A DNA stretch of 39,499 bases from a virus: positions 1-39,499 of IMG/VR virus record IMGVR_UViG_3300044622_001278. One strand, given 5' to 3'. Numbering within the stretch: the stretch's first letter is position 1; each line of letters begins with the position of its first letter. Of the stretch, positions 14,345-33,359 are shown piece after piece. The position numbers were made by a program, and so were the translations under genes. The notes under the pieces were generated by a model that had not been told where the DNA came from, searched no databases, and saw nothing but the letters and a program-made list of their open reading frames with translations.

Positions 14345-14372
14345 GATCCTGAGCATGATTGAAAACTGCTCA
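14345..14372 (+). promoter_or_regulatory. 3'-UTR pseudoknot element, copy 1
   Basis: Stem P1 is GATC/GATT (one G-U pair) around the loop CTGAGCAT; A-rich linker; then TGCTCA (14367-14372) pairs with TGAGCA (14350-14355) in the loop. Six nt after the membrane-peptide stop and followed by AATTTTTG. One of seven copies. Confidence 0.6.
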
Positions 14373-14380
14373 AATTTTTG

Positions 14381-14502
14381 CTAGGTGCCTAGCGTGTCGT
14401 CCACAGGTTATCCACAGGCTTTACGTGTGATTAAAAACACACCAACAATTTTCCCGAAACCTGCACTTTGGATTTGATTTTGTCAGTACGAAATGATAGG
14501 CT
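14381..14502 (+). promoter_or_regulatory. Composite promoter of the 14533 unit
   Basis: CTAGGTGCCTAG palindrome (14381-14392), GCGTGTCGT, DnaA-box match TTATCCACA (14408-14416), CRP-type TGTGATTAAAAACACA (14426-14441), then TTGATT (14474-14479), a 17-bp spacer and TAGGCT (14497-14502). Operator centre to -10 is 63.5 bp, about one turn beyond the 52.5-bp class. Confidence 0.55.
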
Positions 14503-14532
14503 TGATTTATCAAGTTAAGAAAGAAGGCATAA

Positions 14533-14673
14533 ATGACCGACACCTGTATCCAATGCAACGAAAATGCAGTATCCATTACTGAATTGTATTGCTATAACTG
14601 CTATCTTGATAATAATGCAGAAATAGACTACACTAAGATTGACCTACTATGGACTACTAAGGAGAACGCATAA
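14533..14673 (+). CDS. 46-aa zinc-finger-like protein
   Basis: MTDTCIQCNENAVSITELYC then YNCY: two C-x2-C knuckles separated by 11 residues. Ribosome site AAGAAGG. TAATG overlap with the next gene. A likely structural zinc site; function unknown. Confidence 0.7.
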   Translation: MTDTCIQCNENAVSITELYCYNCYLDNNAEIDYTKIDLLWTTKENA

Positions 14674-14888
14674 TGGAATACCTATACTCAGTAACAGTTA
14701 CCTATGACTCTAACCCTACACCTGCTTGGGTTGGTCGTTACTCAGATGCTTTAACTGCCGTTGAAGTTTATCAGAAGTTTGTTGATGTAGGGTTTGCTAA
14801 CGAATACTCAACAGTTAATCTATCAGAGCCTTCAGGCAAAATGCACACAAAAACTCTTTATGCTTCAGGATTGGTGGTAACACGATAA
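14673..14888 (+). CDS. Hypothetical protein, 71 aa
   Basis: MEYLYSVTVTYDSNPTPAWV then a helix YSDALTAVEVYQKFVDVGF and a beta hairpin, an alpha/beta ferredoxin-like pattern. TAATG coupling on both sides. Unknown. Confidence 0.7.
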   Translation: MEYLYSVTVTYDSNPTPAWVGRYSDALTAVEVYQKFVDVGFANEYSTVNLSEPSGKMHTKTLYASGLVVTR

Positions 14889-15031
14889 TGCCACTATTTG
14901 AATTTAACACTTTCATAAATGTAGAAGCAGAGGACTATGACTCAGCAATAGAAGTGTTTGATAGTAATATCAGATACGGATTACTAAATAAAAATGATAT
15001 ATATGTAGCAGATATAGAGGAGAAAAAATAA
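14888..15031 (+). CDS. 47-aa 'VEAED' family protein
   Basis: MPLFEFNTFINVEAEDYDSA then ADIEEKK; paralogue of 12512-12652 by the F-x-F...VEA-E/D-D core. Starts by overlapping the upstream stop; AGGAGA precedes the next start. Confidence 0.65.
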   Translation: MPLFEFNTFINVEAEDYDSAIEVFDSNIRYGLLNKNDIYVADIEEKK

Positions 15032-15351
15032 TGGGAAGCGTAACAGCAATTGGATTAGCAGATAGCGTCCTTGATTTAGAAACACAATTAGCCTATCACT
15101 TACAGGGTAATCACTATCCACCCGTACCACTAAGCATGGTGCAACCTTGCATTGATGCTATTGATGCTTACTATGATAATGATGCTATGAGACAGATTGC
15201 TATGCCAGATGGCGTATTCTACAAGGGCATGAGTCATGCACCAGCGTATGCGATTATTGAACAACACCACTTAGATTTTTGGTTGCCACAAGATGATGAA
15301 TACTATGGTGAAGAAGATGCAGGGTATGAATTAGGATTGGGGCTTGAATAA
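15031..15351 (+). CDS. Conserved actinophage-type protein, 106 aa
   Basis: Contains LAYHLQGNHYPPVPLSMVQP, DAIDAYYDND, GVFYKGMSHAPAYAIIEQHH and a C-terminal acidic tail. This 'HLxxNHYPPVP...C.DAIDA...HHLDFWL' plan is familiar from mycobacteriophage and related actinophage small proteins, supporting an actinobacterial host. No biochemical function known to me. Confidence 0.75.
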   Translation: MGSVTAIGLADSVLDLETQLAYHLQGNHYPPVPLSMVQPCIDAIDAYYDNDAMRQIAMPDGVFYKGMSHAPAYAIIEQHHLDFWLPQDDEYYGEEDAGYELGLGLE

Positions 15352-15578
15352 TGTCTGCTACAATGATGAGTATGGAATTGCGATTCGCTGATTATCTTTT
15401 GCCAAACCAATTGGCAGAAGGTGATTTGGTAAAAATTGAAGATCAGTTTGTAACAGTAAAAACAATAATGGAATCTAATGATGGTTATCATTTAATTTTG
15501 CTTGATGACTTTGGTGATGAAGTTGAAGCATTTGTTTTAGATGATGACAAAATTGAATGGTACGTTTTTGTGGAGTAA
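15351..15578 (+). CDS. Small beta-barrel-like protein, 75 aa
   Basis: Contains LAEGDLVKIEDQFVTVKTI and YHLILLDDFGDEVEAFVLDD, an SH3/OB-like strand pattern typical of small nucleic-acid or regulatory adaptors. Overlaps the upstream stop by 1 nt. Function unknown. Confidence 0.65.
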   Translation: MSATMMSMELRFADYLLPNQLAEGDLVKIEDQFVTVKTIMESNDGYHLILLDDFGDEVEAFVLDDDKIEWYVFVE

Positions 15579-15590
15579 TCCGCAAAACCG

Positions 15591-15646
15591 CCTAGGCAAT
15601 TTGGACAAATCGGACATTTGCATTTTTAATATTTTTATGATAAGAT
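15591..15646 (+). promoter_or_regulatory. CCTAGGCA + CGGACAT element and leaderless promoter
   Basis: CCTAGGCA (15591-15598), then GACAAATCGGACATT, then TTGCAT (15618-15623), a 17-bp spacer and TAAGAT (15641-15646). The -10 ends 6 nt before the ATG at 15653. No CRP-type site here; the same CCTAGGCA/GACAAATCGGACATT pair recurs at 19936-19964. Confidence 0.6.
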
Positions 15647-15652
15647 TAAATC

Positions 15653-15781
15653 ATGAGAAAGAAAACCCCTGAGGAATTAAGACGTTTAATGGAATTACGT
15701 CGTTCCAATGCCGCCACCCCATTACGCAGCAAAAAGTGGTATTCCCGAAAGATTAAACACAAAAATAAGAGTGTCGCTTGA
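15653..15781 (+). CDS. 42-aa very basic protein, leaderless
   Basis: MRKKTPEELRRLMELRRSNA then SKKWYSRKIKHKNK: 17 Lys/Arg in 42 residues, with a helix then a basic tail. A likely nucleic-acid or ribosome binder (inference). The ATG is 6 nt from the -10 box, with no room for a ribosome site. Its last codons hold the -35 of the next promoter. Confidence 0.6.
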   Translation: MRKKTPEELRRLMELRRSNAATPLRSKKWYSRKIKHKNKSVA

Positions 15782-15806
15782 TTTTTAATTAAAAAAATGT
15801 TATTAT
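15778..15806 (+). promoter_or_regulatory. Promoter of the GP88-like gene
   Basis: TTGATT (15778-15783), 17-bp spacer, TATTAT (15801-15806), overlapping the stop of the preceding gene. Confidence 0.6.
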
Positions 15807-15829
15807 AGAAGTCTAAAGAAAGGACCCCC

Positions 15830-16549
15830 ATGAAACTAAAACGTTCTATGGATAGGAAGGTAGCAAATGCAGTATCAAAAAATGGAAAAACCCCAACAAT
15901 CGCCAACACTTTTGGATTACCTGCTGGAAAGGCTTATTCATGCCCTAATCAAACCTCTGTATGCGCTAAGGTATGCTACGCAGGAAAACTCGAAAAAATC
16001 TACAAAGGAGTAAGAGATAATCTTATTCATAATTGGGATCTATTGAAAGACGCTAACTATGATGAAATGGTTAGATTACTTGATGAGATGATTCTTGATT
16101 TTAAGGCAGACTGTGTAAAGAAGGACGCCCCTATGTTATTCCGTATTCACTGGGACGGGGATTTCTTTAATGATACTTATACCCTCGCCTGGAGCACAGT
16201 AGTTAAAAATCATAGCGATGTTAAATTCTGGGTTTATACTCGTGTACCCTCTGCAATAGAAATTCTCAAGGGTATCGATAATCTATCTGTTTATTTTAGT
16301 ACAGACGCAGATAATAAGGATGAAGCAATAAAACTATTTAATGCTCATGGCGTTAAATTAGCATACCTTGCAGAAACTTTTGCTATAGGTCAAGAGGACA
16401 TGAAGGCAATGATAGGTAAGGTAGGCGCTAAGTGCCCTGAGAATAAGAAGGCTATCCCCCTAATCTCACAGGCTGGATCTGCTTGCGTATCATGCGGCTT
16501 GTGTATTGACAACAAATCTGCTATAGTATTTTCAACAAAGAAAAGGTAA
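15830..16549 (+). CDS. Gene product 88-like (GP88) phage protein
   Basis: A 239-aa protein: LPAGKAYSCPNQTSVCAKVC, then YAGKLEK, a central alpha/beta region with RIHWDGDFF and a C-terminal CVSCGLC. This Cys pattern and the 'LPAGxxCPxxxxCxxxCYA' opening are those of the mycobacteriophage gp88 family, whose function is not established; an iron-sulfur or radical-type enzyme is a guess. Strong AAAGAAAGGA site. Followed closely by a membrane peptide. Confidence 0.75.
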   Translation: MKLKRSMDRKVANAVSKNGKTPTIANTFGLPAGKAYSCPNQTSVCAKVCYAGKLEKIYKGVRDNLIHNWDLLKDANYDEMVRLLDEMILDFKADCVKKDAPMLFRIHWDGDFFNDTYTLAWSTVVKNHSDVKFWVYTRVPSAIEILKGIDNLSVYFSTDADNKDEAIKLFNAHGVKLAYLAETFAIGQEDMKAMIGKVGAKCPENKKAIPLISQAGSACVSCGLCIDNKSAIVFSTKKR

Positions 16550-16556
16550 GGAAATC

Positions 16557-16625
16557 ATGAAACTAATAGGCTTATTACTTACAGCCCTACTATTGTGGGT
16601 CATTTTTTACCCCCCTCTAAAGTGA
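16557..16625 (+). CDS. 22-aa membrane peptide
   Basis: MKLIGLLLTALLLWVIFYPP, a single hydrophobic helix, with a good AGGTAAGGA ribosome site 7 nt after the GP88-like stop. Its end overlaps the next CRP-type site. Short, so moderate confidence. Confidence 0.45.
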   Translation: MKLIGLLLTALLLWVIFYPPLK

Positions 16626-16705
16626 CCCAAATCACACGAGAGAAATCTCAAAATGTGAGAAAATGTCAAAAATAACTTGACACGGCAAGAAATAAATGTC
16701 ATAAT
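16621..16705 (+). promoter_or_regulatory. CRP-type operator and promoter of 16737
   Basis: AGTGACCCAAATCACA (16621-16636), then TTGACA (16677-16682), a 17-bp spacer and CATAAT (16700-16705). Operator centre to -10 is 71.5 bp, about two turns beyond the 52.5-bp class. Confidence 0.5.
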
Positions 16706-16736
16706 AATAACATAACCAAAACAAAGGAGAAAAACA

Positions 16737-16904
16737 ATGTCAGTAGCAACCGCAACTTACAAGGTAGGCGACCTATACACTTCACAGAAGTCAAAGGTTA
16801 CAGGCACAATTACAGAAATCAAGCCAAACAAGGACGGCTCAACTGTTCGTGTAAAACTTGATGTAAATGGCACACCTCGCTGGACAACTTGGACGGCTAA
16901 GTAA
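16737..16904 (+). CDS. 55-aa KOW/SH3-like small protein
   Basis: MSVATATYKVGDLYTSQKSK then VTGTITEIKPNKDGSTVRVK and TPRWTTWTAK: strand-turn-strand repeats typical of a small beta barrel. Paralogue of 17512-17679 (same 168-nt length; shared Y-x-x-GDL-x-T, VTG and RV-x-L). AAAGGAGA ribosome site. Followed by pseudoknot copy 2. Confidence 0.7.
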   Translation: MSVATATYKVGDLYTSQKSKVTGTITEIKPNKDGSTVRVKLDVNGTPRWTTWTAK

Positions 16905-16927
16905 TTCCTAACTAAATAAACAGGAAA

Positions 16928-16957
16928 AGTCCTGAGCATGACTACTAAAAAGGCTCA
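16928..16957 (+). promoter_or_regulatory. 3'-UTR pseudoknot element, copy 2
   Basis: P1 AGTC/GACT (four perfect pairs) around CTGAGCAT; linker ACTAAAAAG; P2 GCTCA (16953-16957) pairs with TGAGC (16933-16937). This copy has lost the sixth P2 pair. 24 nt after the stop. Confidence 0.6.
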
Positions 16958-16959
16958 AC

Positions 16960-16988
16960 TTGATTTCTAACAGAAAAAATGTTAGACT
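16960..16988 (+). promoter_or_regulatory. Promoter of the 17026 gene
   Basis: TTGATT (16960-16965), 17-bp spacer, TAGACT (16983-16988), immediately downstream of pseudoknot copy 2. Confidence 0.55.
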
Positions 16989-17025
16989 TAGATAAACCCA
17001 AACCCATAAGAAAGGAAATAAACAA

Positions 17026-17448
17026 ATGGCAAGAGGACAAAAAGCAATTAGCGTAAAGATTGCTACAACTAAAGTTATCAAGGCTTTAGAAACAAAGTTA
17101 GCACAACTCCAAAAGGATAAGGCTAATCAAAAAGTAAATGAGGAGAAGTTCTCAAAGGCTCAAGAGAAGTATAACAAGGAAGTCGCTAAGTTAGCACTTG
17201 CTTCTATCTCAAAGGCTACTGATGTATCTGCTCATACTCGCTACAATGGTGAGATAAATGTATCTTTCTCACTACCAAAAGGAACGATTGACCTTCCTAC
17301 TGAACCTGAAAGAGATTTTGAGACTTTCCATGATTGGCAGTATAAGGAAATGGTTGAGGAAATTGAGAACGCAATTCGTATTCTCAAGATGACAGATGAG
17401 GAAGTAGTTTCTACTTCTACTTACAACGCTATCGCCCGATACTTGTAA
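17026..17448 (+). CDS. Coiled-coil protein, 140 aa
   Basis: MARGQKAISVKIATTKVIKA, then a Lys/Glu/Gln-rich coiled coil to about residue 58, then HTRYNGEINVSFSLPKG and a C-terminal helix. AAGAAAGGAAA ribosome site. No family recognised; a structural or regulatory oligomer is possible. Sits alone between two pseudoknot copies. Confidence 0.7.
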   Translation: MARGQKAISVKIATTKVIKALETKLAQLQKDKANQKVNEEKFSKAQEKYNKEVAKLALASISKATDVSAHTRYNGEINVSFSLPKGTIDLPTEPERDFETFHDWQYKEMVEEIENAIRILKMTDEEVVSTSTYNAIARYL

Positions 17449-17453
17449 TTCAC

Positions 17454-17481
17454 TCTCCTGAGCATGAGGTAAAACTGCTCA
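17454..17481 (+). promoter_or_regulatory. 3'-UTR pseudoknot element, copy 3
   Basis: P1 TCTC/GAGG (one G-U) around CTGAGCAT; TAAAAC linker; TGCTCA (17476-17481) pairs with TGAGCA (17459-17464). Five nt after the stop at 17448. No promoter lies between it and the 17512 gene, so the next gene may be read through it. Confidence 0.6.
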
Positions 17482-17511
17482 ACACAAAACCCAAAACAGA
17501 AAGGCAAGATA

Positions 17512-17679
17512 ATGACACTTGGCGGATACACTTACCAAATCGGAGATTTATTTACAACAAGCAAAACAGGAGTTACAGGAAGAATTGAAAAGTTTGTTCC
17601 ACAAACTAAAAATGTAACTCGTGTGATGTTGCGACTTGCGAATAACCAAACTCGTTTTGCTATGGTAAAGACTTACTAA
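17512..17679 (+). CDS. 55-aa small protein, paralogue of 16737
   Basis: MTLGGYTYQIGDLFTTSKTG then VTGRIEKFVPQTKNVTRVML. Same length and plan as 16737-16904, a tandem duplicate separated by one unrelated gene. Ribosome site AAAGGCAAG. Confidence 0.7.
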   Translation: MTLGGYTYQIGDLFTTSKTGVTGRIEKFVPQTKNVTRVMLRLANNQTRFAMVKTY

Positions 17680-17688
17680 TAGCGATAG

Positions 17689-17719
17689 TTCGACCTGAGC
17701 ACTTGTCGAAAAACTGCTC
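17689..17719 (+). promoter_or_regulatory. 3'-UTR pseudoknot element, copy 4
   Basis: P1 TTCGAC/GTCGAA (six perfect pairs) around a 10-nt loop CTGAGCACTT; AAAC linker; TGCTC (17715-17719) pairs with GAGCA (17697-17701). Ten nt after the stop. P1 sequence is wholly different from the other copies while P2 is kept. Confidence 0.65.
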
Positions 17720-17722
17720 GCT

Positions 17723-17781
17723 GATTTTCTTTCCTGCGTTCAAGGCAGATCTATCTGCGAAAGTCCCCTGGAGAGAAAATC
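17723..17781 (+). other. Long two-stem RNA hairpin
   Basis: GATTTTCTTTCC (17723-17734) pairs with GGAGAGAAAATC (17770-17781), 12 pairs with one G-U. It encloses a second hairpin GCAGA/TCTGC (17745-17749 with 17754-17758). It directly follows pseudoknot copy 4 and precedes CCTAGGCA, in a 215-nt gap with no gene. Confidence 0.5.
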
Positions 17782-17782
17782 G

Positions 17783-17868
17783 CCTAGGCAATGTGATTTA
17801 AAACACAGTCCAATATGTGAGATCTTTTACGTACCTGGTTTGCATTTCCCCCTAAAAAATGCTATGCT
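17783..17868 (+). promoter_or_regulatory. CCTAGGCA, CRP-type operator and promoter of 17895
   Basis: CCTAGGCA (17783-17790) abuts TGTGATTTAAAACACA (17792-17807). TTGCAT (17840-17845), a 17-bp spacer and TATGCT (17863-17868) follow. Operator centre to -10 is 63.5 bp. The start at 17895 has an AAGAAAGGA site. Confidence 0.55.
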
Positions 17869-17894
17869 TATATTATCTAAGAAAGGATAAATAA

Positions 17895-18158
17895 ATGATT
17901 TCAACCGCATTAGCAATTCAAGGAGCAACAAAGGACGCCGTCCACGACGAAAGCATAATGGATATGGCTCGTTCTATCTATCAGAATAAAGACTATATGT
18001 CAGCAGATGACTTTGCAAAGGCTATGTTTATGTATTCTGCAAGTCTTTCAGCACTTACCGCTACACTCGTAACTCATGCTTGCTTGACAGAAAATCAAAT
18101 AAATGATATGCTTGAAACAATACAAGAAATGGAATCCATGGGAAAGGATATTGAATAA
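17895..18158 (+). CDS. Helical hypothetical protein, 87 aa
   Basis: MISTALAIQGATKDAVHDES, then helices LSALTATLVTHACLTENQIN and EMESMGKDIE. All-helical; no family recognised, although actinophages commonly carry similar small proteins before a DUF932 gene. Overlaps the next start by 1 nt. Confidence 0.7.
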   Translation: MISTALAIQGATKDAVHDESIMDMARSIYQNKDYMSADDFAKAMFMYSASLSALTATLVTHACLTENQINDMLETIQEMESMGKDIE

Positions 18159-18571
18159 TGGAAACAACAAACGCTCACTATATGACACGAGAGTTTTTAG
18201 AGACTCAGTTAGCAGAAAATAAATCACGCATTACACAACTTGAGGAACACATTCAAACAGTTACACAACGTTCCTATACAGAGTCTGCAGAACGTAACCG
18301 TATGCGTAATGAAATGCAAGAATGGACCTTGGAGCAATTGGATGAAGATTCAATTACAGAGTCACAGGCTGAAGAAATTGCAAACATTTGTGGTTTTGAA
18401 TTAACAAAAGAATTTGAGGTTGAGGTTACAGTAGAGTACTCAATCACAGTCAATGCACGTAATGAAGAGCAGGCTATGAATGCAATCTATGATATTGATT
18501 TTGATTCTGTATCTTATAGTGACAGTGCAATTACATACTTATCATCCAGTGTTGACAGAGTAGACATTTAA
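18158..18571 (+). CDS. Coiled-coil plus alpha/beta protein, 137 aa
   Basis: N-terminal coiled coil (about residues 10-45, LETQLAENKSRITQLEEHIQ), then a C-terminal alpha/beta domain with FEVEVTVEYSITVNARNEEQ and AIYDIDFDSVSYSD. The latter resembles the small VEA-E/D-D proteins at 12512 and 14888, suggesting a shared domain. Function unknown. Confidence 0.7.
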   Translation: METTNAHYMTREFLETQLAENKSRITQLEEHIQTVTQRSYTESAERNRMRNEMQEWTLEQLDEDSITESQAEEIANICGFELTKEFEVEVTVEYSITVNARNEEQAMNAIYDIDFDSVSYSDSAITYLSSSVDRVDI

Positions 18572-18576
18572 AATAT

Positions 18577-18646: not shown

Positions 18647-18649
18647 AAG

Positions 18650-18679
18650 GGACCTGAGCATGTCCACGTAAACTGCTCT
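18650..18679 (+). promoter_or_regulatory. 3'-UTR pseudoknot element, copy 5
   Basis: P1 GGAC/GTCC (four perfect pairs) around CTGAGCAT; linker ACGTAAAC; TGCTC (18674-18678) pairs with GAGCA (18656-18660). 78 nt after the stop, behind the two hairpins. Confidence 0.6.
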
Positions 18680-18840: not shown

Positions 18841-19857
18841 ATGGCTCATGAATTAGAAACTCAAAATGGTGTTGCATCTTTTGCATCATTTCGTGAACCT
18901 GCGTGGCATGGTCTTGGTACTGTGTTCACAGAAGAAAAAACAACTACAGAAATGCTTGATGCAGCAAATCTGTCTAATTGGAATGTTCGTCTTGAAGATG
19001 TAAACATTCCCTCTCACTTATCATCAGATAAGGACTATCAGTATGTAGTGCGTACTAATCCTACAGACAATACTCAAACAGATGTTTTGGGTGTTGTAGG
19101 TCAGCGTTACCATGTTTTGCAGAATGAAGATTTATTCTCATTCGGTGATAACATTCTTGACGGCGGAGGTCGTTGGGAAACTGCTGGTGCTATTCGTGGT
19201 GGTCGTGTTGTATTCGGCTCTCTTGCTTTAGAGCGTGAAACAATTCTTGACCCTAATGGTGTTGCAGATAAGGTAAAGACTTATTTGCTTATCAACACAT
19301 CACATGACGGCTCAATTGCTATTCAAGCAAGCATTACACCTGTTCGTGTTGTATGCGCTAACACTCTTAATCTTGCACTTAATCGTACACGCAAGAAGGA
19401 CGGCGTTAAGCAATCATTCAAGATACGCCATACACAGACCGCTAATGGTAAAGTGCAGATTGCTCGTGAGACTCTTGGTCTTGCTAATGCTTACATGGAC
19501 GCTTTTGATGTTATGGCTAAGGCTATGATTGAAAAAGAAGTTACCGCACAGCAATTTAACGACATTGTTCTTGCTGCTTATCCAAAGCCTGAGAATGATA
19601 AGAAAATTGCTCTCACTAAGTGGACAAATAAAATTGATACAATCAATGACATTTACACAGGTGAGTTTAACGGAATGATTGCTGGTAATGCGTGGGGTGC
19701 TTTCAATGCACTAACTGAACGCCTTGATTGGTATCGTTCTGCTCGTGGTGGTAATACTGAAAGTATTCTCGCTGCTGCTTCTGGGTTTGATGCACAAATC
19801 AACGCAGAAAAAAATCGTTTGCTAACTGTTGTGCAAAAAGTTATGCAACTTGCATAA
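18841..19857 (+). CDS. DUF932 / phage-plasmid-like protein (TIGR03299 type)
   Basis: A 338-aa protein with the hallmark opening of this family: MAHELETQNGVASFASFREP, then AWHGLGT, later VLGVVGQRYHVLQNEDLFSF, LLINTSHDGSIAIQASITPV and RVVCANTLNLAL. DUF932 proteins are common in phages and plasmids of Actinobacteria and elsewhere; function not established. AAAGGAAA ribosome site. Monocistronic between two CCTAGGCA elements. Confidence 0.9.
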   Translation: MAHELETQNGVASFASFREPAWHGLGTVFTEEKTTTEMLDAANLSNWNVRLEDVNIPSHLSSDKDYQYVVRTNPTDNTQTDVLGVVGQRYHVLQNEDLFSFGDNILDGGGRWETAGAIRGGRVVFGSLALERETILDPNGVADKVKTYLLINTSHDGSIAIQASITPVRVVCANTLNLALNRTRKKDGVKQSFKIRHTQTANGKVQIARETLGLANAYMDAFDVMAKAMIEKEVTAQQFNDIVLAAYPKPENDKKIALTKWTNKIDTINDIYTGEFNGMIAGNAWGAFNALTERLDWYRSARGGNTESILAAASGFDAQINAEKNRLLTVVQKVMQLA

Positions 19858-19864: not shown

Positions 19865-19893
19865 AATTCCTGAGCAAGAATTAAAACTGCTCA
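19865..19893 (+). terminator. 3'-UTR pseudoknot element, copy 6, with U-tract
   Basis: P1 AATTC/GAATT (five perfect pairs) around CTGAGCAA; AAAAC linker; TGCTCA (19888-19893) pairs with TGAGCA (19871-19876). Directly followed by a T6 run and further T-rich sequence, so this copy could terminate transcription. Seven nt after the stop. Confidence 0.65.
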
Positions 19894-20024: not shown

Positions 20025-20030
20025 AAATGT

Positions 20031-25765: not shown

Positions 25766-26657
25766 ACTTAAGTTTATTTAATAACTCTTCCGTTGTATTA
25801 TTTTCAGTCATAAGACCTACCTGTGTATAGTCTAATTTGCATAATTTTGATATCTTTGCCCATGTTTTATAAGAGTAATCTTCTGGCTTAGTATTTATTT
25901 CTAATACCTTAGTTCCTTCTTTACAAACTATAGTATTAGTAAGGCCAGATCCACTTATTGATACTATTTCATCTGCGTTATAAAATGTATCTATTTGGTT
26001 TTGGAGTGTCATCTTTTCTAAATTTAAAATGTTGTATCCCAATGCCGCAAAATATTTTTCAAACTCAATTTCATCTTCAATAATTCTTCCAGTCTTTAAA
26101 CCGCCTGTACGACTTACATAATATTTACCTTTTAATTTTGAATTATCCTTTGCTAAAGATGTAAATAAATCTCTTATTTCTATAAAAGGAAAATTAAAAT
26201 ACGCCGATGCTGGATCTTTCCTAACTTTTAATTCAAAATCATATACCTTTTCAAACTCATAATGTGCTCCGAGAACTTTTATCTTTGATGATTGAAAATC
26301 TTGACCGAATAATAAAAATATATCTTGATCTACTAAATTAAAATAATCTCTATCATTTGGCTTAGGGCTTGTTGTTATTGCGTACATTTTTAAATCTGGA
26401 ACATATTTTTTTATATATAAAAATACAGAAAGGGAATCTAAAATTAAATGAGTATATTGAGGATTAATGAATATTAAAAAAGAATTACCTTTAATTTTAA
26501 TTTTGTTGTAGGGATTATGTCCTATGCAGACATTATTTAATTCGTATATATCTGGGTAATTTTCATCCTCAGATTTATAAAATATTTCAGATTCTATAAC
26601 ATCTTTATTTGGAATATAAGAATCAAACTTTCTAAACGATGATTCAAAATTTTTCAT
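25746..26657 (-). CDS. GT61-type glycosyltransferase, copy 2
   Basis: A 303-aa protein whose C-terminal half has YYVSRTGGLKTGRIIEDEIE, then LQNQIDTFYNADEIVSISGS and GLTNTIVCKEGTKVLEI. This is the GT61 (capsular polysaccharide/EpsZ-like) signature 'SR...R...nE...Q...A...G..LtN...EI'. Likely transfers a sugar onto a glycan. 40% or more similar by eye to the upstream copy, a tandem duplication. ATGA overlap couples them. Confidence 0.8.
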   Translation of the reverse strand: MKNFESSFRKFDSYIPNKDVIESEIFYKSEDENYPDIYELNNVCIGHNPYNKIKIKGNSFLIFINPQYTHLILDSLSVFLYIKKYVPDLKMYAITTSPKPNDRDYFNLVDQDIFLLFGQDFQSSKIKVLGAHYEFEKVYDFELKVRKDPASAYFNFPFIEIRDLFTSLAKDNSKLKGKYYVSRTGGLKTGRIIEDEIEFEKYFAALGYNILNLEKMTLQNQIDTFYNADEIVSISGSGLTNTIVCKEGTKVLEINTKPEDYSYKTWAKISKLCKLDYTQVGLMTENNTTEELLNKLKSIQRYL

Positions 26658-27598
26658 ATTAACTCCTGTATATATTTTACACTATCTTTTATTTGATCAA
26701 CATCAGATAAAGCGCTTTCTTTGTCTCCTAAAAATGAAATACCAATGTAGTTAATGCCAATAGACTTACAATTTTTTGCCCAAGTATTATAGGTGTATGT
26801 GTCTGGAGATCTATTTATTTCAATTATATTTGCTTCTGAACTACAAAAAACTGTATTAGTTAATCCAGAGCCACTAAAACAAACAATGTCTTTTGCATTA
26901 AAAAATATTTCCATTTGTGCTTCTAAGTTCATATGAGATAATCTTATTAAAGAAAAACCTTTGTCAGCCAAATACATTTCAAATCCAGCAATATCTTTAA
27001 CAGATCTGTTACCAGAATCTATTCTTGATATATATATTTTTTTTGCAGAATTTTCATTTATAGATATTTTATTTAAAAGGTTTTCTCTTATTGCCATAAA
27101 AGGAAATACATACATCGTTGATACAGTTTTCTTTCGTCCAGAGAAATCAAAATCATATACCTCATCAAAAATATATTTATTTTTTCTCAAGTCTAATATT
27201 TTTGAATTTGGATTTTGATGTCCATCAAGATATAGCCAATCTTTGTCAAAAGATATAGAATTATCTCTATAGTTATGTGGATTTAAAAAATAAGGTTGAA
27301 GTCCAGGAATATGTTTTTTTATTCCATAATAAACGCCAACCCCATCTAATAAAAAATGTACGTATGCTGCAGTTTGATACATTAGGAATACTGGCCCTTT
27401 AATTCTTTTAGCCTCTCCTTTCCCACTACCTATTGATAAATTTCTGTACACATATATATTTGGAATAAATTCTTGATCTTGTTCAACTTTTTCATATGGC
27501 AATAATTCTTTTCCTGTTGAGAAAACCAGTTCTTTTTCTATTGGATTATTTAAAAAAAAGGTACCGTTAAACTTAGTCCACGTATTTTCATTAGCCAC
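26654..27598 (-). CDS. GT61-type glycosyltransferase, copy 1, leaderless GTG start
   Basis: A 314-aa protein with KIYISRIDSGNRSVKDIAGF, then NLEAQMEIFFNAKDIVCFSG and GLTNTVFCSSEANIIEI, the same GT61 plan as copy 2. GTG start at 27598 chosen because TATAAT (27610-27605) lies exactly 6 nt upstream. With copy 2 it would modify a surface polysaccharide, either of the virion or of the host during superinfection exclusion. Confidence 0.8.
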   Translation of the reverse strand: MANENTWTKFNGTFFLNNPIEKELVFSTGKELLPYEKVEQDQEFIPNIYVYRNLSIGSGKGEAKRIKGPVFLMYQTAAYVHFLLDGVGVYYGIKKHIPGLQPYFLNPHNYRDNSISFDKDWLYLDGHQNPNSKILDLRKNKYIFDEVYDFDFSGRKKTVSTMYVFPFMAIRENLLNKISINENSAKKIYISRIDSGNRSVKDIAGFEMYLADKGFSLIRLSHMNLEAQMEIFFNAKDIVCFSGSGLTNTVFCSSEANIIEINRSPDTYTYNTWAKNCKSIGINYIGISFLGDKESALSDVDQIKDSVKYIQELI

Positions 27599-28060: not shown

Positions 28061-28356
28061 CCTGGTCCTGCCCTTGCAATGGCTGTAAAAAGGCACAGAA
28101 GGTCGTTATAGACCAAATCATAGAAGAGTATAGGTCTTGTCTCAATGTAGAAGAATTTGACGGTAAATTATACTGTACGGTATGGTATAAACATGATGAT
28201 TGTGTGAGGCTAATGGAATTATTAAATAGGATTACGAAGAATGATTTATATTCCCTGCCAGAAATTAGACCAGCAGTTGCAGATGCTATCACTATGATGT
28301 TGACAGATCCAAAAACTTCTGAGATACTTAGAAGGTTAGAAGATAACGGTATCTAG
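28057..28356 (+). CDS. Cysteine-start hypothetical protein, 99 aa
   Basis: MTWSCPCNGCKKAQKVVIDQ then FDGKLYCTVWYKHDDCVRLM, a possible metal site using the N-terminal C-x-C-x2-C and two later Cys. Its stop overlaps the first base of the Met/Ile tRNA, so the mRNA likely reads into the tRNA cluster. Confidence 0.7.
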   Translation: MTWSCPCNGCKKAQKVVIDQIIEEYRSCLNVEEFDGKLYCTVWYKHDDCVRLMELLNRITKNDLYSLPEIRPAVADAITMMLTDPKTSEILRRLEDNGI

Positions 28357-28430
28357 CACCAGTAGCCAAGTTGGTTAAGGCACCGAACTCATAATTCGGC
28401 TATTCGTAGGTTCAAGTCCTACCTGGTGTA
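28356..28430 (+). tRNA. tRNA with CAT anticodon (Met, or Ile if lysidinylated)
   Basis: Acceptor GCACCAG/CTGGTGT (G1-U72), D arm GCC...GGC, anticodon stem CCGAA/TTCGG with loop CTCATAA (anticodon 28390-28392), T arm GTAGG-TTCAAGT-CCTAC, discriminator A. CCA not encoded. It lacks the C1-A72 mismatch of initiators, so it is elongator Met or Ile(CAU). Confidence 0.9.
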
Positions 28431-28435
28431 CACAA

Positions 28436-28506
28436 GGGATTGAAGCATTAAAGTGATGCTCAGGACTTTTAATCCTGAGAAGAAGGAGCATTACCTTCCA
28501 GTCCTA
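28436..28506 (+). tRNA. Atypical tRNA-Lys(TTT)-like element
   Basis: Anticodon arm is perfect (CAGGA-CTTTTAA-TCCTG, anticodon TTT) and lies between two tRNAs at normal spacing. But the D loop (TAAAGTG) lacks GG and the T loop (AGCATTA in GAAGG/CCTTC) lacks TTC. The acceptor GGATTG/CAGTCC has six pairs. Either a decayed tRNA-Lys or a tRNA-like RNA of another use. Confidence 0.4.
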
Positions 28507-28507
28507 C

Positions 28508-28581
28508 GCATCTGTAACTCAGTTGGTTAGAGTACCCGCCTTATATGCGGAGAGCCGAAGGTTCAAGTCCTTCCAGATGTA
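28508..28581 (+). tRNA. tRNA-Ile (TAT anticodon)
   Basis: Acceptor GCATCTG/CAGATGT, D arm ACTC...GAGT, anticodon loop CTTATAT (anticodon 28542-28544), five-base variable loop, T arm GAAGG-TTCAAGT-CCTTC, discriminator A. One mismatch (C27-A43) in the anticodon stem. Reads AUA, a codon common in this AT-rich genome. Confidence 0.88.
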
Positions 28582-28585
28582 CTTA

Positions 28586-28658
28586 GCCCTTGTAGCCCAG
28601 CGGTAGAGGCACACGACTTAAAATCGTGCAAGCGTTGGTTCGAATCCAACCAGGGGCA
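28586..28658 (+). tRNA. tRNA with TAA anticodon and short variable loop
   Basis: Acceptor GCCCTTG/CAGGGGC, anticodon stem CACGA/TCGTG with loop CTTAAAA (anticodon TAA at 28619-28621, reading UUA Leu), T arm GTTGG-TTCGAAT-CCAAC, discriminator A. The variable region is only five bases (CAAGC), not the long arm of normal tRNA-Leu, so its identity is uncertain. Confidence 0.85.
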
Positions 28659-28686
28659 CAATGGTATACTTAATGTGGAGGAATAA

Positions 28687-29448
28687 ATGATTATACAAAT
28701 TATAGGATTACCTGGATCTGGTAAAACAGAATTAGCAAAAGCACTCAAAGAAAGAATTAACGCCATTCATCTTAATGCAGATGAGGTTCGTGCAACAGTT
28801 AATTCTGACCTTGGGTTTACCGCTGAAGATCGTATTGAGCAAGCACGACGCATGGGAGAGATGGCAAGACTAATTTCTAAGCAGGGCGTTGCTCCAGTAA
28901 TAGTTGACTTTATATGTCCTACAGAACTAACTCGTGCAGCATTTGGTAAGCCAGACATTTTTATTTGGATGGACACAATCGAAGAAGGTAGATTTGAAGA
29001 CACAAACAAAATGTTTGAAAGCCCTTCTGACTATGACATTGCATTTATTAGCCATGATCTAAATCCAAATGAGAAATCAACAGAAATTATTAAACGATTT
29101 GATTTACATGACTGGTCTGCACCTACAACACTTATGTTGGGTAGGTACCAGCCATGGCATGAAGGCCACCACGCCCTTTACAATGAAGCGGGGAAGAGAA
29201 CAGAGCAAGTGCTACTGGGAGTCCGTAATACATACAATACAAGCGAGAAGGATCCACTTACTTTTGATCAGGTTAAGGGGTATATTGCTAAAGATGAGTT
29301 TATGGATGGCGCATTAGTACTAAGACTACCTAACATTACAAATATTGTATATGGTCGTGATGTAGGATATAAGATTGAGCAAGTAGACTTGGGGGCAGAC
29401 ATTCATGCTATTTCGGCTACTGAAAAACGTCGTGAATTGGGCATCTAA
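28687..29448 (+). CDS. APS kinase-like P-loop + nucleotidylyltransferase fusion
   Basis: A 253-aa protein. Residues 7-14 are the P-loop GLPGSGKT, followed by LNADEVRATVNSDLGFTAED typical of APS kinase-like phosphotransferases. Residues about 147-253 are a second domain with LMLGRYQPWHEGHHAL (H158-E-G-H161 of nucleotidylyltransferases) and ISATEKR (I-S-x-T-x-x-R). Both active sites are intact. Likely phosphorylates and then nucleotidylates one small substrate, as in sugar or cofactor activation. GTGGAGGAATAA site. Confidence 0.8.
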   Translation: MIIQIIGLPGSGKTELAKALKERINAIHLNADEVRATVNSDLGFTAEDRIEQARRMGEMARLISKQGVAPVIVDFICPTELTRAAFGKPDIFIWMDTIEEGRFEDTNKMFESPSDYDIAFISHDLNPNEKSTEIIKRFDLHDWSAPTTLMLGRYQPWHEGHHALYNEAGKRTEQVLLGVRNTYNTSEKDPLTFDQVKGYIAKDEFMDGALVLRLPNITNIVYGRDVGYKIEQVDLGADIHAISATEKRRELGI

Positions 29449-29527
29449 TATTGGTAAAGGTATTGCAGATGCAGAAGAAAGAATGATAGAAGAAATGTAT
29501 AGGAAAAAAGAAGATGACAGTAACTAA
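29432..29527 (+). CDS. 31-aa acidic peptide overlapping two genes
   Basis: Frame from GTG at 29432, MNWASNIGKGIADAEERMIE then MYRKKEDDSN, bridging the kinase and DUF2061 genes with overlaps of 17 and 14 nt. A Glu/Lys-rich helix. Small and overlapping, so tentative. Confidence 0.45.
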   Translation: MNWASNIGKGIADAEERMIEEMYRKKEDDSN

Positions 29528-29717
29528 AGCCAGATCATTTGCAAAAGCATTAAGTTATCGCATATGGGGCACACTTTCCTCTATTGCTGTTGCTTATGTC
29601 ATTACAAAGAACGCTTCTCTTTCTATAACGATTGCATTTTGGGAAACGGTAGTTAAAGTATTTATTTACTACGCACATGAGCGTGGCTGGAACTATATAC
29701 AATGGGGAAGAAAATAA
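29514..29717 (+). CDS. DUF2061 membrane protein
   Basis: A 67-aa protein with the DUF2061 pattern: RSFAKALSYRIWGTLSSIAV, then ITIAFWETVVKVFIYYAHER and a GWNYIQWGRK end. Two membrane helices. Found in many aquatic phages and bacteria; function unknown. Ends 3 nt before the Arg tRNA. Confidence 0.85.
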   Translation: MTVTKARSFAKALSYRIWGTLSSIAVAYVITKNASLSITIAFWETVVKVFIYYAHERGWNYIQWGRK

Positions 29718-29720
29718 TAT

Positions 29721-29792
29721 ACCTCTGTAACTCAGCGGAAGAGTAGCGGACTTCTAATCCGTTTGTCGCAGGTTCGATTCCTGCCAGGGGTG
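29721..29792 (+). tRNA. tRNA-Arg (TCT anticodon)
   Basis: Acceptor ACCTCTG/CAGGGGT, D arm ACTC...GAGT, anticodon stem GCGGA/TCCGT with loop CTTCTAA (anticodon TCT), T arm GCAGG-TTCGATT-CCTGC, discriminator G. Reads AGA/AGG, favoured in AT-rich phages. Confidence 0.9.
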
Positions 29793-29814
29793 CTATAATA
29801 TAGTAAAGGACATT

Positions 29815-30915
29815 ATGAACATAGTTATTCCAATGGCTGGACTCGGATCCCGCTTTAAAAATGTTGGCATCAATGAACCAAAGCCTTTGATTATGGTTGA
29901 TGGCAGGCATCTTATTGAGCATTCTGTTGATTCTTTAGATATACCAGGAAAATATATTTTTATTACAAGAAAATATGAAAATCCAGAATATAATAAAAGA
30001 CTATCCAATATATTAACTCAACTAAAACCAGATTGTATAGAGATATGCTTAGATCATGACCAGTATGGTGCTGCTGATGCTGCTCTTTATGCAAAAGAGT
30101 ATATTGATAATGATGAAGAATTAATTATAACTAACTGTGATCAACTTTTAAAATGGAATTCTGATGAGTTTTTAGATGTAGCACGTTCTGCTTATTGTGA
30201 TGGAGCAGTTGCTTTATTTAAATCATCAGACGTCAAACATAGTTATGCAATTATAGAAAATGAAAAGATAATCAATATAGAAGAAAAAAATGTAATTAGT
30301 GATAATGCATTAGTAGGAGTTCATTACTGGAGACGTGGATTAGATTTTGTAAGGTCCGCCAAAAAATTAACATCAGAGTATAGATCAAAAGGATTAAATG
30401 AATGCTATATTTCTTCAACATATAAATATCTTATTGAGGATGGGCTTAATATTTTACCTTATAATATGCCACGCAATGGGTATATTTCTCTTGGCACACC
30501 ACAAGATTTGGATGTTTATTCAAGCAAGTTAAGAGAATACTATAGTGAAAAACCTAAAACTATTTTTTGTGATATAGACGGAACAATTATCAAGCACGTA
30601 CATAGGTTTAGTTATGTAGGATTTGAGCCAGCCATTGCACTAAAGGGTGTGATAGATAAATTTAATGAATGGGATTCTAAGGGACATAAGATTATATTAA
30701 CAACAGCAAGAAAAGAATCAGCAAGAATGCTAACAGAAAAGCAACTAACTGATTTAGGTATATGCTGGGATCAATTAGTTATGGGAGTTACAAGTAGTGA
30801 AAGAATTTTAATTAATGACAAACACTTAGAATCAGACAAAGATCGTGCTGTTGCTGTTAATTTAATTACAGATCAAGGATTTGAAGATACTAACTGGAGC
30901 AATATTGGACTATGA
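29815..30915 (+). CDS. Nucleotidyltransferase + HAD-phosphatase fusion
   Basis: A 366-aa two-domain protein. N-terminal sugar-nucleotidyltransferase (GlmU/RmlA-type): MAGLGSRFKNVG and EPKPL (residues 21-25), then NCDQLL as the metal-binding aspartate region. C-terminal HAD-like domain: FCDIDGTII (D253, D255), TTARKE and INDKHLESDKDRA. HAD partners of such transferases are often sugar-phosphate phosphatases. First gene of a four-gene unit with AAAGGACATT before the ATG, after the Arg tRNA. Confidence 0.8.
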   Translation: MNIVIPMAGLGSRFKNVGINEPKPLIMVDGRHLIEHSVDSLDIPGKYIFITRKYENPEYNKRLSNILTQLKPDCIEICLDHDQYGAADAALYAKEYIDNDEELIITNCDQLLKWNSDEFLDVARSAYCDGAVALFKSSDVKHSYAIIENEKIINIEEKNVISDNALVGVHYWRRGLDFVRSAKKLTSEYRSKGLNECYISSTYKYLIEDGLNILPYNMPRNGYISLGTPQDLDVYSSKLREYYSEKPKTIFCDIDGTIIKHVHRFSYVGFEPAIALKGVIDKFNEWDSKGHKIILTTARKESARMLTEKQLTDLGICWDQLVMGVTSSERILINDKHLESDKDRAVAVNLITDQGFEDTNWSNIGL

Positions 30916-31241
30916 AAGTAAGTAGGATAGAAGATACTATAAAGGGTTGGTTCATAGGAGACTTTCCAAATTCAGCATTTAAGTCAAAAGATTTTGAGGT
31001 ATCTTGGAGAATACACCCTGCTGGTGAATCTTGGGACTTACATTATCAAGAAAATGCGTATGAAATTAATTTATTAATTAATGGCGAGATGATTTTAAAT
31101 AATGTTAAATTAGTTTCTGGCGATGTTTTTATATTAGATCCTTATGAAATTACAGATGTTAGGTTTATTACAGAGTGTTCTATTGTTTGTGTTAAAACTC
31201 CAAGCCTTCCAGATGATAAGGTAATTGTTAAAAAAGTATGA
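30912..31241 (+). CDS. Cupin-like protein
   Basis: A 109-aa beta protein: SWRIHPAGESWDLHYQENAY then INLLINGEMILNNVKLVSGD and VFILDPYEIT. The 'G...N....GD.f.l.P' order is cupin-like, although metal-binding His are reduced. Sugar-binding or isomerase roles are possible. ATGA overlap with both neighbours. Confidence 0.65.
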   Translation: MKVSRIEDTIKGWFIGDFPNSAFKSKDFEVSWRIHPAGESWDLHYQENAYEINLLINGEMILNNVKLVSGDVFILDPYEITDVRFITECSIVCVKTPSLPDDKVIVKKV

Positions 31242-31699
31242 AAATAATAGCACATAGAGCAAATCTATTTGGCCCAGATAAAAATAATGAAAACTCTCCA
31301 GCGCAGATAATAAGGGCCTTAGAAAAAAGGTTTGACGTAGAAGTAGATGTATGGGTTGTTGATAAAAAAATATACTTTGGTCATGATGAGCCTAAGTATG
31401 AGTGCTCAGAAGATTTTCTAATTAGAATTATAGAAAAGTCTTGGTTTCATTGTAAGAATTTAAATGCTATTCATTATTTACCAAAAAAATTTCCAGGGAT
31501 AAAATATTTTTGGCATCAGTCGGATGACTTTGCCTTAACAAGCGATCAATATATTTGGACTTATCCTGGAAAATCAATTACAGATAAATCTATTTTAGTA
31601 TTACCAGAATTATTAAGTGATGATGAATCAAAAAATATGCTTGAACAAAATCCTTATGGGGTGTGCACTGATTGGCCATTTAATTATGAACTTAGATAA
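31238..31699 (+). CDS. GDPD-like phosphodiesterase-family protein
   Basis: A 153-aa protein: IIAHRANLFGPDKNNENSPA, then RFDVEVDVWVVDKKIYFGHD. This resembles the HR-x-N, ExD and HD-x-P core of glycerophosphodiester phosphodiesterases, which cleave lipid or teichoic-type diesters. The barrel is shorter (about 150 aa) than a typical 240-aa GDPD, so it may be a minimal or sugar-specific relative. Confidence 0.65.
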   Translation: MKIIAHRANLFGPDKNNENSPAQIIRALEKRFDVEVDVWVVDKKIYFGHDEPKYECSEDFLIRIIEKSWFHCKNLNAIHYLPKKFPGIKYFWHQSDDFALTSDQYIWTYPGKSITDKSILVLPELLSDDESKNMLEQNPYGVCTDWPFNYELR

Positions 31700-31835
31700 T
31701 GAGATAAGAAATATATTGTTTAAAATAGGACAAGACATAAAAGTTCATAAATTGCAAGATGGACATTTAATTTTAGATATAGATTATGAAAAGTATGTAA
31801 AAGAATTTGTAGAGTTATTTAATAAAGAAAAATAA
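31686..31835 (+). CDS. 49-aa small protein at operon end
   Basis: MNLDNEIRNILFKIGQDIKV, ending KEFVELFNKEK, starting 14 nt inside the GDPD-like gene. Helix-strand-strand-helix pattern. Function unknown; convergent with the 31840-31992 gene. Confidence 0.6.
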   Translation: MNLDNEIRNILFKIGQDIKVHKLQDGHLILDIDYEKYVKEFVELFNKEK

Positions 31836-31839
31836 TACA

Positions 31840-31992
31840 TTACTTATCTTTTTTATTATACTCGCCATACTTACCAAGTACTGCTTTAACTGTACCGTCT
31901 TTTCTTAAGCGTACGATCATTCCGTCTTTAATTTGTATTGGATTAAAAGGATGCTTTGATTTATACTTGCCAGATGATTTACCAGAAGCCAT
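31840..31992 (-). CDS. 50-aa basic protein
   Basis: MASGKSSGKYKSKHPFNPIQ then IVRLRKDGTVKAVLGKYGEY. Very basic, with a short beta pair. Overlaps the end of the upstream cysteine-rich structural gene by 14 nt, so the two form one unit. May be a nucleic-acid-binding or virion protein. Confidence 0.6.
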   Translation of the reverse strand: MASGKSSGKYKSKHPFNPIQIKDGMIVRLRKDGTVKAVLGKYGEYNKKDK

Positions 31993-33127
31993 TACCGCTA
32001 CCACGAACTTTCTTACTCTGTTTTTCTATAGAATTAAAAGTGTCAGAGAATAATGCTTTATCTTTTTCAGCATTAACAATTCTCCTTGACCAAGAATAGC
32101 CAGCATCCCCACCCCATGCTAACCACATTATGTACCCATTGGATGGATTTGATTGACTGCCCCAATCCTTCCCCTTTTTATCTACCTCGTGACGAGAAAA
32201 ATAAGAATACATTCTCTTAACTGTGCTTAGTGAAATTGTTTCGCCTCTTGCAAGTTGTCCTGCACGAGTCCATCCTACTGATGTACCTGCACCTTTAGCC
32301 TTGCCTTGTTCTTTAAATTTAATTGCTTTACGTGCTGCTGAACGAGCACCTGCTGGTGGAGAATATCCATCAGCCTTTGAAACTGTATCTGTTTCATAAA
32401 TTACTGTATCGTCGTCTTCCCAAAGATCGTCTGCTTTTTCTGCTGGTACGCAATTAGGAACCATCTTGCCACCATCTCCTGGTTTCATACCACGCTGAAC
32501 ATACCCGTCCCAACATGGAGCCTTTTTGTTTACATTAGTGCAGCAATCTGATTTCATTTCTCCAGATTGACATTGTGGACATTGGTCGCAAGTGACATCT
32601 AATTCTTTACACATAGGACAGCCGCAACCTTCATATGCTTTTTTAACATTATCGTCTTCTTCTTCATCTTCTTCATCTTCTTCAGTTGAAGAACCGTTAG
32701 ACATTGACTTATCCATTTCATCATCTGAAACAAGTTCAGGTAAAATCATTACGTCTGCTGATTTTGCACCTACAAAATATTCTGTTTCTTCGAGTTCTCC
32801 CTCTTCCATTTCAAATAATTGAATTAAGATAGCAGGTTCTTCAGCGCTTGCTTCAAGAGCATACTCTGATCCTGGAACTCCAAGCATTCCTTCTGTCATT
32901 ACATGAACAACACGACCAACATGCATTTCTTCTTTATGTGGGGCCATAACCATGTCGCCCTCTTTAACCATTGCCTTTCCTATATTGCCCTCAGAACGGT
33001 TTATAGCGTAGATCTGTGCTGCAGCCTCAGAACGAGTCTTATGGCATCCCATAACCTCTCCTGTGTCTTTTAAAGCAGGGTATCCAGAACAACCATTGGA
33101 CCCTTTAGCACCTATACGATACGGCAT
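31979..33127 (-). CDS. Modular cysteine-rich phage protein with DUF5872-like C-terminus
   Basis: A 382-aa protein. Start MPYRIGAKGSNGCSGYPALK with a GCHKTRSEA segment; then a beta barrel-like region (KEGDMVMAPHKEEMHVGRVV), an acidic linker, a cysteine cluster (CGCPMCKELDVTCDQCPQC) and CWDGYVQRGMKPGDGGKMVP. The C-terminus has ARSAARKAIKFKEQGKAKGA, SYFSRHEVDK and WLAWGGDAGYSW, the plan I associate with DUF5872-type domains in phages. These modules recur near capsid-maturation genes, so virion assembly is likely. Leaderless: TATAAT is 6 nt upstream. Confidence 0.7.
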   Translation of the reverse strand: MPYRIGAKGSNGCSGYPALKDTGEVMGCHKTRSEAAAQIYAINRSEGNIGKAMVKEGDMVMAPHKEEMHVGRVVHVMTEGMLGVPGSEYALEASAEEPAILIQLFEMEEGELEETEYFVGAKSADVMILPELVSDDEMDKSMSNGSSTEEDEEDEEEDDNVKKAYEGCGCPMCKELDVTCDQCPQCQSGEMKSDCCTNVNKKAPCWDGYVQRGMKPGDGGKMVPNCVPAEKADDLWEDDDTVIYETDTVSKADGYSPPAGARSAARKAIKFKEQGKAKGAGTSVGWTRAGQLARGETISLSTVKRMYSYFSRHEVDKKGKDWGSQSNPSNGYIMWLAWGGDAGYSWSRRIVNAEKDKALFSDTFNSIEKQSKKVRGSGNGFW

Positions 33128-33166
33128 ATATAAATTATAGCATATGTCTTTATGGTAAAATTAAGT
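33128..33166. promoter_or_regulatory. Divergent leaderless promoters
   Basis: Minus-strand TATAAT (33139-33134), 6 nt before the ATG at 33127, and plus-strand TAAAAT (33156-33161), 5 nt before the ATG at 33167. 39 bp between starts. Confidence 0.6.
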
Positions 33167-33310
33167 ATGAATAACTTCGGATTAGACCATATGTTTAAAA
33201 CTATGAAGCCAGAATTGGTAAAAATAGCAGAAAAATATATTAATCAAGATAATGTTGATATTGATTCTATGATTAATGAGATTATATTAAAAATAAAAAA
33301 CGGCATGTAA
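33167..33310 (+). CDS. 47-aa helical peptide, leaderless
   Basis: MNNFGLDHMFKTMKPELVKI then QDNVDIDSMINEIILKIKNG. Amphipathic helices. Starts 5 nt after a TAAAAT box. Ends head-on with pseudoknot copy 7 of the Hsp20 unit. Confidence 0.55.
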   Translation: MNNFGLDHMFKTMKPELVKIAEKYINQDNVDIDSMINEIILKIKNGM

Positions 33311-33312
33311 AA

Positions 33313-33341
33313 GAGCAGTTTAAACACATGCTCAGGTGCTC
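33313..33341 (-). promoter_or_regulatory. 3'-UTR pseudoknot element, copy 7 (minus strand)
   Basis: On the minus strand: P1 CAC/GTG extended by a G-U, an A-U and a further G-U pair around CTGAGCAT; TTTAAAC linker; TGCTC (33317-33313) pairs with GAGCA (33333-33329). 18 nt after the Hsp20 stop, followed by TTTT. The only copy outside the 14-20 kb region. Confidence 0.65.
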
Positions 33342-33359
33342 AGTATGACCTACTGTTAT

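Follow-up and report, generated by a model that had tools for sequence, protein, structure and literature searches.

A small H-type pseudoknot with two covarying stems, placed just behind stop codons in phages and bacteria of many phyla

Why does a viral genome carry one small RNA fold, in seven differently spelled copies, behind the stop codons of its genes? We asked this of a stretch of viral DNA of 39,499 nucleotides (IMG/VR record IMGVR_UViG_3300044622_001278, positions 1 to 39,499), which was analysed in full and is called the window here; it is probably from an actinophage, judging from DUF932 and GP88 relatives. A preliminary description had listed seven elements in it, each with a short first stem whose sequence changes between copies and a loop able to pair with a downstream TGCTCA. 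All seven were located (Table 1), one of them, copy 2, being degenerate. The pattern CTGAGC-N4..20-AAACTGCTC gave 6 matches in the window compared with 0 for the same pattern backwards, and the stricter TGAGCAT...AAACTGCTC gave 4 compared with a shuffle mean of 0.00. A covariance-model search was run with a model, R1, whose training set included four of the six window copies that scored well (copies 4 and 5, at 17689 and 18650, were outside it). These six of the seven were recovered at E values of 4e-10 to 7.5e-5, and copy 2 was found over its first hairpin only. The common plan ending in AAAC-TGCTCA fails for copy 2, which ends in AAAAAGGCTCA and not, like the other copies, in AAAC-TGCTC; it retains 5 of the 6 stem-2 pairs and has lost two near-invariant positions. 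Relatives of its junction in three other loci (L018, L044 and L069) are intact and have AAACTGCTC at the corresponding place. A same-strand gene follows each of the seven window copies, and behind copy 3 the next ATG is 30 nt downstream, at 17512.

The element is a compact H-type pseudoknot of ∼28 nt. Stem 1 (S1) has 3–6 bp and is closed by C-G, loop 1 (L1) is one C, stem 2 (S2) has 5–6 bp of the form URRRYA/URYYYA, loop 2 (L2) is usually one nucleotide, and loop 3 (L3) ends in AAAC. The fold had been proposed from the covarying first stem, and this can be extended, since S2, which is constant in the window, covaries elsewhere. A scan of IMG/VR with CTGAGC-N4..20-AAACTGCTC found at least 120 contigs; in most of the matches listed, S1 varied in sequence from copy to copy and yet paired. 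When stem 2 was relaxed in the fetched contigs, compensated versions of it were observed (TGAGCA/TGCTCA, TGGGCA/TGCCCA, TGGACA/TGTCCA, TGGGTA/TACCCA, TAAGCA/TGCTTA, TGGATA/TATCCA and TAGACA/TGTCTA).

A second IMG/VR scan was aimed at the TGGRYA versions of stem 2, and its counts are those among the matches listed. As this pattern left S1 pairing (save the closing C-G) and two variable S2 pairs free, it provides a fair test of covariation. Mismatches at S2 position 4 were seen in 2 of the 107 matches, where ∼22 are expected under independence, and at position 5 in 3 of 107, where ∼12 are expected; S1 pairs 2 and 3 were paired in 98%. In an alignment of 70 sequences, 96.9% of the cells were paired and double changes occurred in 8 of the 10 pairs, the rows here, unlike those of the TGGRYA test, having been chosen for pairing. 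A generic search gave 366 distinct matches compared with 25 in reversed sequence. The C of L1 and the AAAC are near-invariant beyond the needs of pairing: with L1 and the end of L3 left free, C with AAAC was the sole enriched combination among copies matching neither seed (47 compared with 0 in the control). As contigs were picked by exact seeds, how often the seed letters occur is not a measured quantity.

The same pseudoknot recurs more than 300 times in contigs of viruses and bacteria. Its phage carriers span Actinomycetota, Bacillota, Cyanobacteriota and Pseudomonadota, and it is also present in metagenome-assembled genomes (MAGs) of many other phyla. Twelve named phages were scanned whole: Rhodococcus phage Trina, Lacticaseibacillus phage P7.1, Methylophilales phage Melnitz and Microcystis phage LMM01 have one element each, and T4, lambda, P-SSM2, HTVC008M, HTVC010P, crAss001, Riptide and Hangman (8 of the 12) have none. 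As many as nine were counted in some uncultured phages. A genome scan gave 98 stretches, with S1 paired in 79 of 101 matches and usually one to five copies per genome, from Saccharibacteria, Parcubacteria, Lactobacillaceae, Cyanobacteriota, Bacteroidota, Chloroflexota, Myxococcota and others. No Rfam 15 family matched the element at gathering score, and relaxed thresholds gave nothing relevant; a literature search, covering few subscription papers or preprints, found no published description of the motif. RNA family libraries lack this very small structure, which covariation supports strongly and which is spread over phages and MAGs of many phyla.

The position of the element is set by the stop codon before it. 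With mechanical gene calls in the contigs, 17% of elements fell inside open reading frames (ORFs), compared with 82% of control positions, and many of these ORFs are short and probably spurious. In 238 cases an ORF on the same strand lies upstream; among these, the distance from stop codon to L1 was never 0–7 nt and was negative in two outliers; it rose abruptly at 8–9 nt, had its mode at 9 and then decayed (8 nt in 7 cases, 9 in 37, 10 in 27, 11 in 14 and 12 in 15), with a tail beyond 80 nt. Even with 120 nt or more to the next gene, the median distance from stop codon to S1 is 8 nt, and 76% are within 15 nt. In Trina the element lies at 113900-113930, 10 nt behind the stop; in Melnitz it is 9 nt behind the stop, and in P7.1 it occupies 9207-9238, immediately after the annotated gene end. 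Toeprints show that a ribosome covers ∼9–10 nt beyond the stop codon in its A site. Given this edge and the spacing mode of 9, S2 would start just outside the terminating ribosome, and the element as a whole would sit just clear of it. Through this fixed distance, a connection between the end of translation and the decay of mRNA in phages becomes directly testable.

The proteins encoded directly upstream form clusters of 17 (DUF932), 15 and 12 members, and the 17 DUF932 cases are followed by 15 different, unrelated downstream families. Searches of 110 upstream genes with Pfam and PHROGs assigned 20 to DUF932 and 16 to Hsp20, with head proteins, single-stranded DNA-binding protein (SSB), peroxidase and others also found. 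As the upstream genes recur and the downstream ones differ, we concluded that the element goes with the upstream cistron. Abundant proteins are probably among these families (Hsp20, head proteins, SSB); searches for Hsp20 and head proteins in named phages gave no match. The idea that the element is mobile or copied found no support: the copies have no common flanks, their first stems differ in sequence, and they are bound to particular upstream genes. Genes of the peroxidase family (PF00141) followed by the element were also seen on viral contigs (at L184:5303-7408, and also at one other upstream gene in alignment A2).

Evidence on transcription came from clustered regularly interspaced short palindromic repeats (CRISPR). 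In the array of Ignavibacteria Ch128a (L381:4054-13747), 5 of the 140 spacers hold the entire pseudoknot core, all in one orientation, where by our own calculation ∼0.4 core-bearing spacers are expected at the copy density of the window. Single core-bearing spacers were found in one Poribacteria and one cyanobacterium (L383 and L291). Ring-nuclease and CARF genes adjoin the Ch128a array, which points to type III. The orientation of the repeats and the adjacent minus-strand genes suggest that its CRISPR RNAs are antisense to the element. This orientation, our one line of evidence on the point, supports transcription of the element, and the spacers show it to be a broad phage target, one that hosts encounter, whether as RNA or as DNA, with a frequency that matters. 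Capture of spacers from RNA by a fusion of reverse transcriptase with Cas1 was considered for Ch128a and rejected, as the neighbouring Cas1, at 357 amino acids, has the usual size.

What might such a knot do behind a stop codon? We tentatively favour, at somewhat less than an even chance, a mechanical barrier that sits at the 3' edge of the upstream cistron, acts in cis and protects that cistron's 3' end. The knot would fold just past the 3' boundary of the ribosome on the stop codon, would act in cis on the preceding cistron, and would define its 3' end or guard it from 3'-5' decay; the upstream message would then outlast its surroundings, as with the intercistronic REP-type hairpins of enteric bacteria. 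Stabilisers of the REP/RIP type share the intercistronic site near stops and, by analogy, the putative shielding of the upstream cistron; they are palindromic hairpins, whereas the element is a phage-borne pseudoknot. In the 8 nt after the second strand of S2, G is nearly absent in all neighbour classes, and TTTT occurs within 10 nt behind the knot in 16–25% of cases compared with 0–3% at +20–30 (three large neighbour classes). The tie to the upstream gene, the rarity of terminators behind the element and this G-poor trailer fit a cis barrier acting in the REP manner in operons without terminators. A role in mRNA-end definition, stability or nuclease blocking had been among the earlier suggestions; together with the 3' placement it is the best-supported class of function, and the action itself is what we infer.

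Several observations weigh against a 3' shield. Convergent neighbours make up 4.6–8.8% at element junctions compared with a background of 22–24%, which a pure 3'-end device alone does not predict. The rarity of intrinsic terminators behind the element (1 of 45 compared with 32 of 345), which speaks for the shield, comes from a crude scan. Myxococcota, Aminicenantes and others have a 20-amino-acid minigene whose stop is overlapped by the knot, and in several of these an apparent intrinsic terminator comes next; a 3' shield would be superfluous there, or translation would disrupt it. A knot of 28 nt is also short for halting RNase R. Finally, the resemblance to coremin, set out below, would by analogy favour blocking in the 5'-3' direction instead.

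Coremin (xrRNA-C, an exoribonuclease-resistant RNA of beny-, cucumo- and other RNA viruses of plants, fungi and insects; PMC10520033, PMC5869530) is the closest published motif. Both have a stem of 3–4 bp closed by C-G, a loop that starts with Y and ends in A-D, and a linker GUUAAAC followed by U, and both are sited in 3' untranslated regions, in intergenic regions or around stop codons. In the element, the closing pair is C-G in 97% of copies and the last two loop letters are A followed by A/T in 96%; the first loop letter is C, which was fixed in the searches and was again the sole enriched letter with L1 free. For the coremin linker GUUAAACU, GTTAAAC is the commonest 7-nt counterpart (37 of 277, always followed by T), and the others vary before AAAC. 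The commonest phage version, GTCC-TGAGCAT-GACGTTAAACT-GCTCA, contains coremin GUCC and GACGUUAAACU. The differences are in the rest of the fold. Coremin has a short loop with G second (YGAD or YGNNAD), whereas the loop of the element has 8 nt, with U second, six of its bases forming stem 2 with the strand behind AAAC; as the seeds specified this U, they could have missed rarer variants. Directly after its linker coremin has a second hairpin, whereas in the element the nucleotides following AAAC pair with the loop and covary with it. As the loop G and the second hairpin are missing, we did not file the element as coremin. Coremin belongs to RNA viruses, and the element, whose nuclease resistance is putative, to DNA phages and bacteria; the likeness raises the question of shared ancestry or convergence between the RNA viruses of eukaryotes and DNA phages.

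It is possible, if doubtful, that the element is a prokaryotic counterpart of coremin: an anisotropic 28-nt knot, placed exactly where the leading edge of a terminating ribosome lies, that would halt nucleases or ribosomes and tune single cistrons, used by phages and some bacteria and exploited by type III CRISPR as a broad phage target. If so, it would represent a widespread class of bacterial RNA roadblock that is so far undescribed.

A rival reading, which we hold to be unlikely on balance, is that the knot is a coremin-type exoribonuclease-resistant RNA that stops 5'-3' decay by RNase J through the upstream cistron; what would be left is a downstream mRNA or a small 3' RNA whose 5' end is formed by the knot. 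Coremin stops Xrn1 and scanning ribosomes in vitro (PMC10520033), and a flaviviral RNA of the resistant kind stops bacterial RNase J1 (PMC5760640). The commonest second strand of S1 with its linker, GACGTTAAAC followed by T, is together with the 5'-side GTCC identical to coremin GUCCGAAGACGUUAAACUAC, and in both motifs the first loop C, the last A followed by A/T, and the C and U of the linker are fixed. The depletion of convergent neighbours and the absence of the element from T4 and lambda are consistent with such a role. A strong RNase J match was found in 28 of 40 element-bearing genomes (27 above the cut-off and one at 391 compared with 400 bits); the other ∼12 (Polynucleobacter, Flavobacteriales and others; MAGs perhaps incomplete or mis-binned) speak against a strict dependence on RNase J, which we rejected. 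The element moreover follows the identity of the upstream gene and not of the downstream one, and the G and second hairpin that coremin requires are missing. A 5'-3' block fits these facts less well than a cis barrier for the upstream message.

The spacing from the stop codon admits another explanation, rather unlikely in our estimate, in which the knot, placed where the mRNA enters the terminating ribosome, keeps 70S or 30S particles that have completed termination from sliding on into the following cistron, or tunes termination and recycling. Frameshift pseudoknots sit at a comparable distance from the A-site codon, and the spacing mode puts S1 at just that position. The neighbours are mostly close and on the same strand, and the in vitro arrest of scanning eukaryotic ribosomes by coremin points the same way. 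A barrier to ribosomes is harder to reconcile with the long gaps or likely promoters after many copies, those of the window included, with the spacing tail beyond 80 nt, and with the lack of a tie to particular downstream genes.

The near-invariance of C and AAAC and the matching spacers in an array associated with type III would also be expected of a protein-binding site or a decoy, working in cis or in trans, where the decoy would be for CRISPR or for another RNA-targeting system resembling type III toxin-antitoxins. We consider this improbable: the element occurs in many phyla, where no linked protein gene was seen, and its copies are solitary and tied to stops, whereas type III antitoxin RNAs (ToxI-like) are tandem repeats beside a toxin gene.

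Termination of transcription, with S2 and a following T-run releasing RNA polymerase, would agree with the enrichment of TTTT and the few other terminators behind the knot; it is very improbable, as the T-run is missing after most copies, many copies lie inside operons 15–40 nt ahead of the next start, and S2 by itself amounts to 6 bp closing a long loop. A signal for stop-codon readthrough or frameshifting, which the recoding-like distance from the stop might suggest, can hardly be true, because the reading frame of the element relative to the stop is random (69/59/55) and the in-frame extension past the stop is short (median 8 codons), with TAA the commonest stop (TAA 161, TAG 55, TGA 22).

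Among other known RNAs, the preQ1-I riboswitch shares the H-type topology and an A-rich third loop. Control by a ligand in the preQ1 manner, as had been raised, found no support: L2 is one nucleotide, no spare conserved loop could form a binding pocket, the copies are anchored to upstream stops rather than placed in leaders, and Rfam gave no match. The autoregulatory pseudoknot of T4/T2 gene 32, bound by gp32 in the 5' leader 67 nt before the start codon (PMC3014915), is also a phage H-type fold; the element instead lies 3' of stop codons, at many genes. In three Clostridia loci (L257, L267 and L297) the knot is directly 5' of a DUF2800 RNA (RF02960), a separate family with the knot outside its model boundaries; L277, which ends within a DUF2800 RNA, resembles them.

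The minigene mentioned above is conserved and solitary, with ∼20 codons of the MKRFMIPRTAHCDEGCRILS type, an HCxxGC or HCxxCG motif and a strong Shine-Dalgarno sequence, and its end overlaps the pseudoknot (L250, L254, L271, L289, L301, L305, L322, L333, L336 and L400-L403). A terminator-like hairpin is often next to it, and it had no NCBIfam match. Selenocysteine insertion at a conserved UGA was considered and rejected, as UGA is changed to UGG in some members with S2 pairing kept.

Table 1. Pseudoknot copies and the associated DUF932 gene in the window
Feature	Position	Strand	Stop codon to L1 C (nt)	Details	R1 score (bits)
Copy 1	14345..14372	+	9	S1 GATC/GATT, L1 C, S2 TGAGCA/TGCTCA, L3 GAAAAC; stop ends 14339	38.8
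Copy 2, degenerate	16928..16957	+	27	S1 AGTC/GACT, S2 TGAGCA/GGCTCA (5/6 pairs), AAAA replaces AAAC	15.5 (first hairpin only)
Copy 3	17454..17481	+	9	S1 TCTC/GAGG, S2 TGAGCA/TGCTCA, L3 TAAAAC	42.7
Copy 4	17689..17719	+	15	S1 TTCGAC/GTCGAA (6 bp), longer L2, S2 GAGCA/TGCTC	27.4
Copy 5	18650..18678	+	82	S1 GGAC/GTCC, S2 GAGCA/TGCTC, long L3 ACGTAAAC	23.4
Copy 6, behind DUF932 gene	19865..19893	+	12	S1 AATTC/GAATT, S2 TGAGCA/TGCTCA, then TTTTTT	42.5
Copy 7	33313..33338	-	24	S1 CAC/GTG, S2 GAGCA/TGCTC, L3 TTTAAAC	38.1
DUF932 gene	18841..19857	+		family most frequent directly upstream of the element	

The window holds further features of its own. Recurring intergenic palindromes like CCTAGGCAA, at 13016, 14381, 15590, 17783, 18690 and 19936, lie mostly behind elements and ahead of likely promoters, and may be operator sites. 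A phage tRNA gene cluster (Met, Ile, Leu, Arg and one weaker) at 28356-28659 and 29721-29793 lies around kinase/nucleotidyltransferase-like genes. The phage also encodes a glycosyltransferase 61 protein (26654-27598) and a tryptophan-halogenase-like protein (35692-36930).

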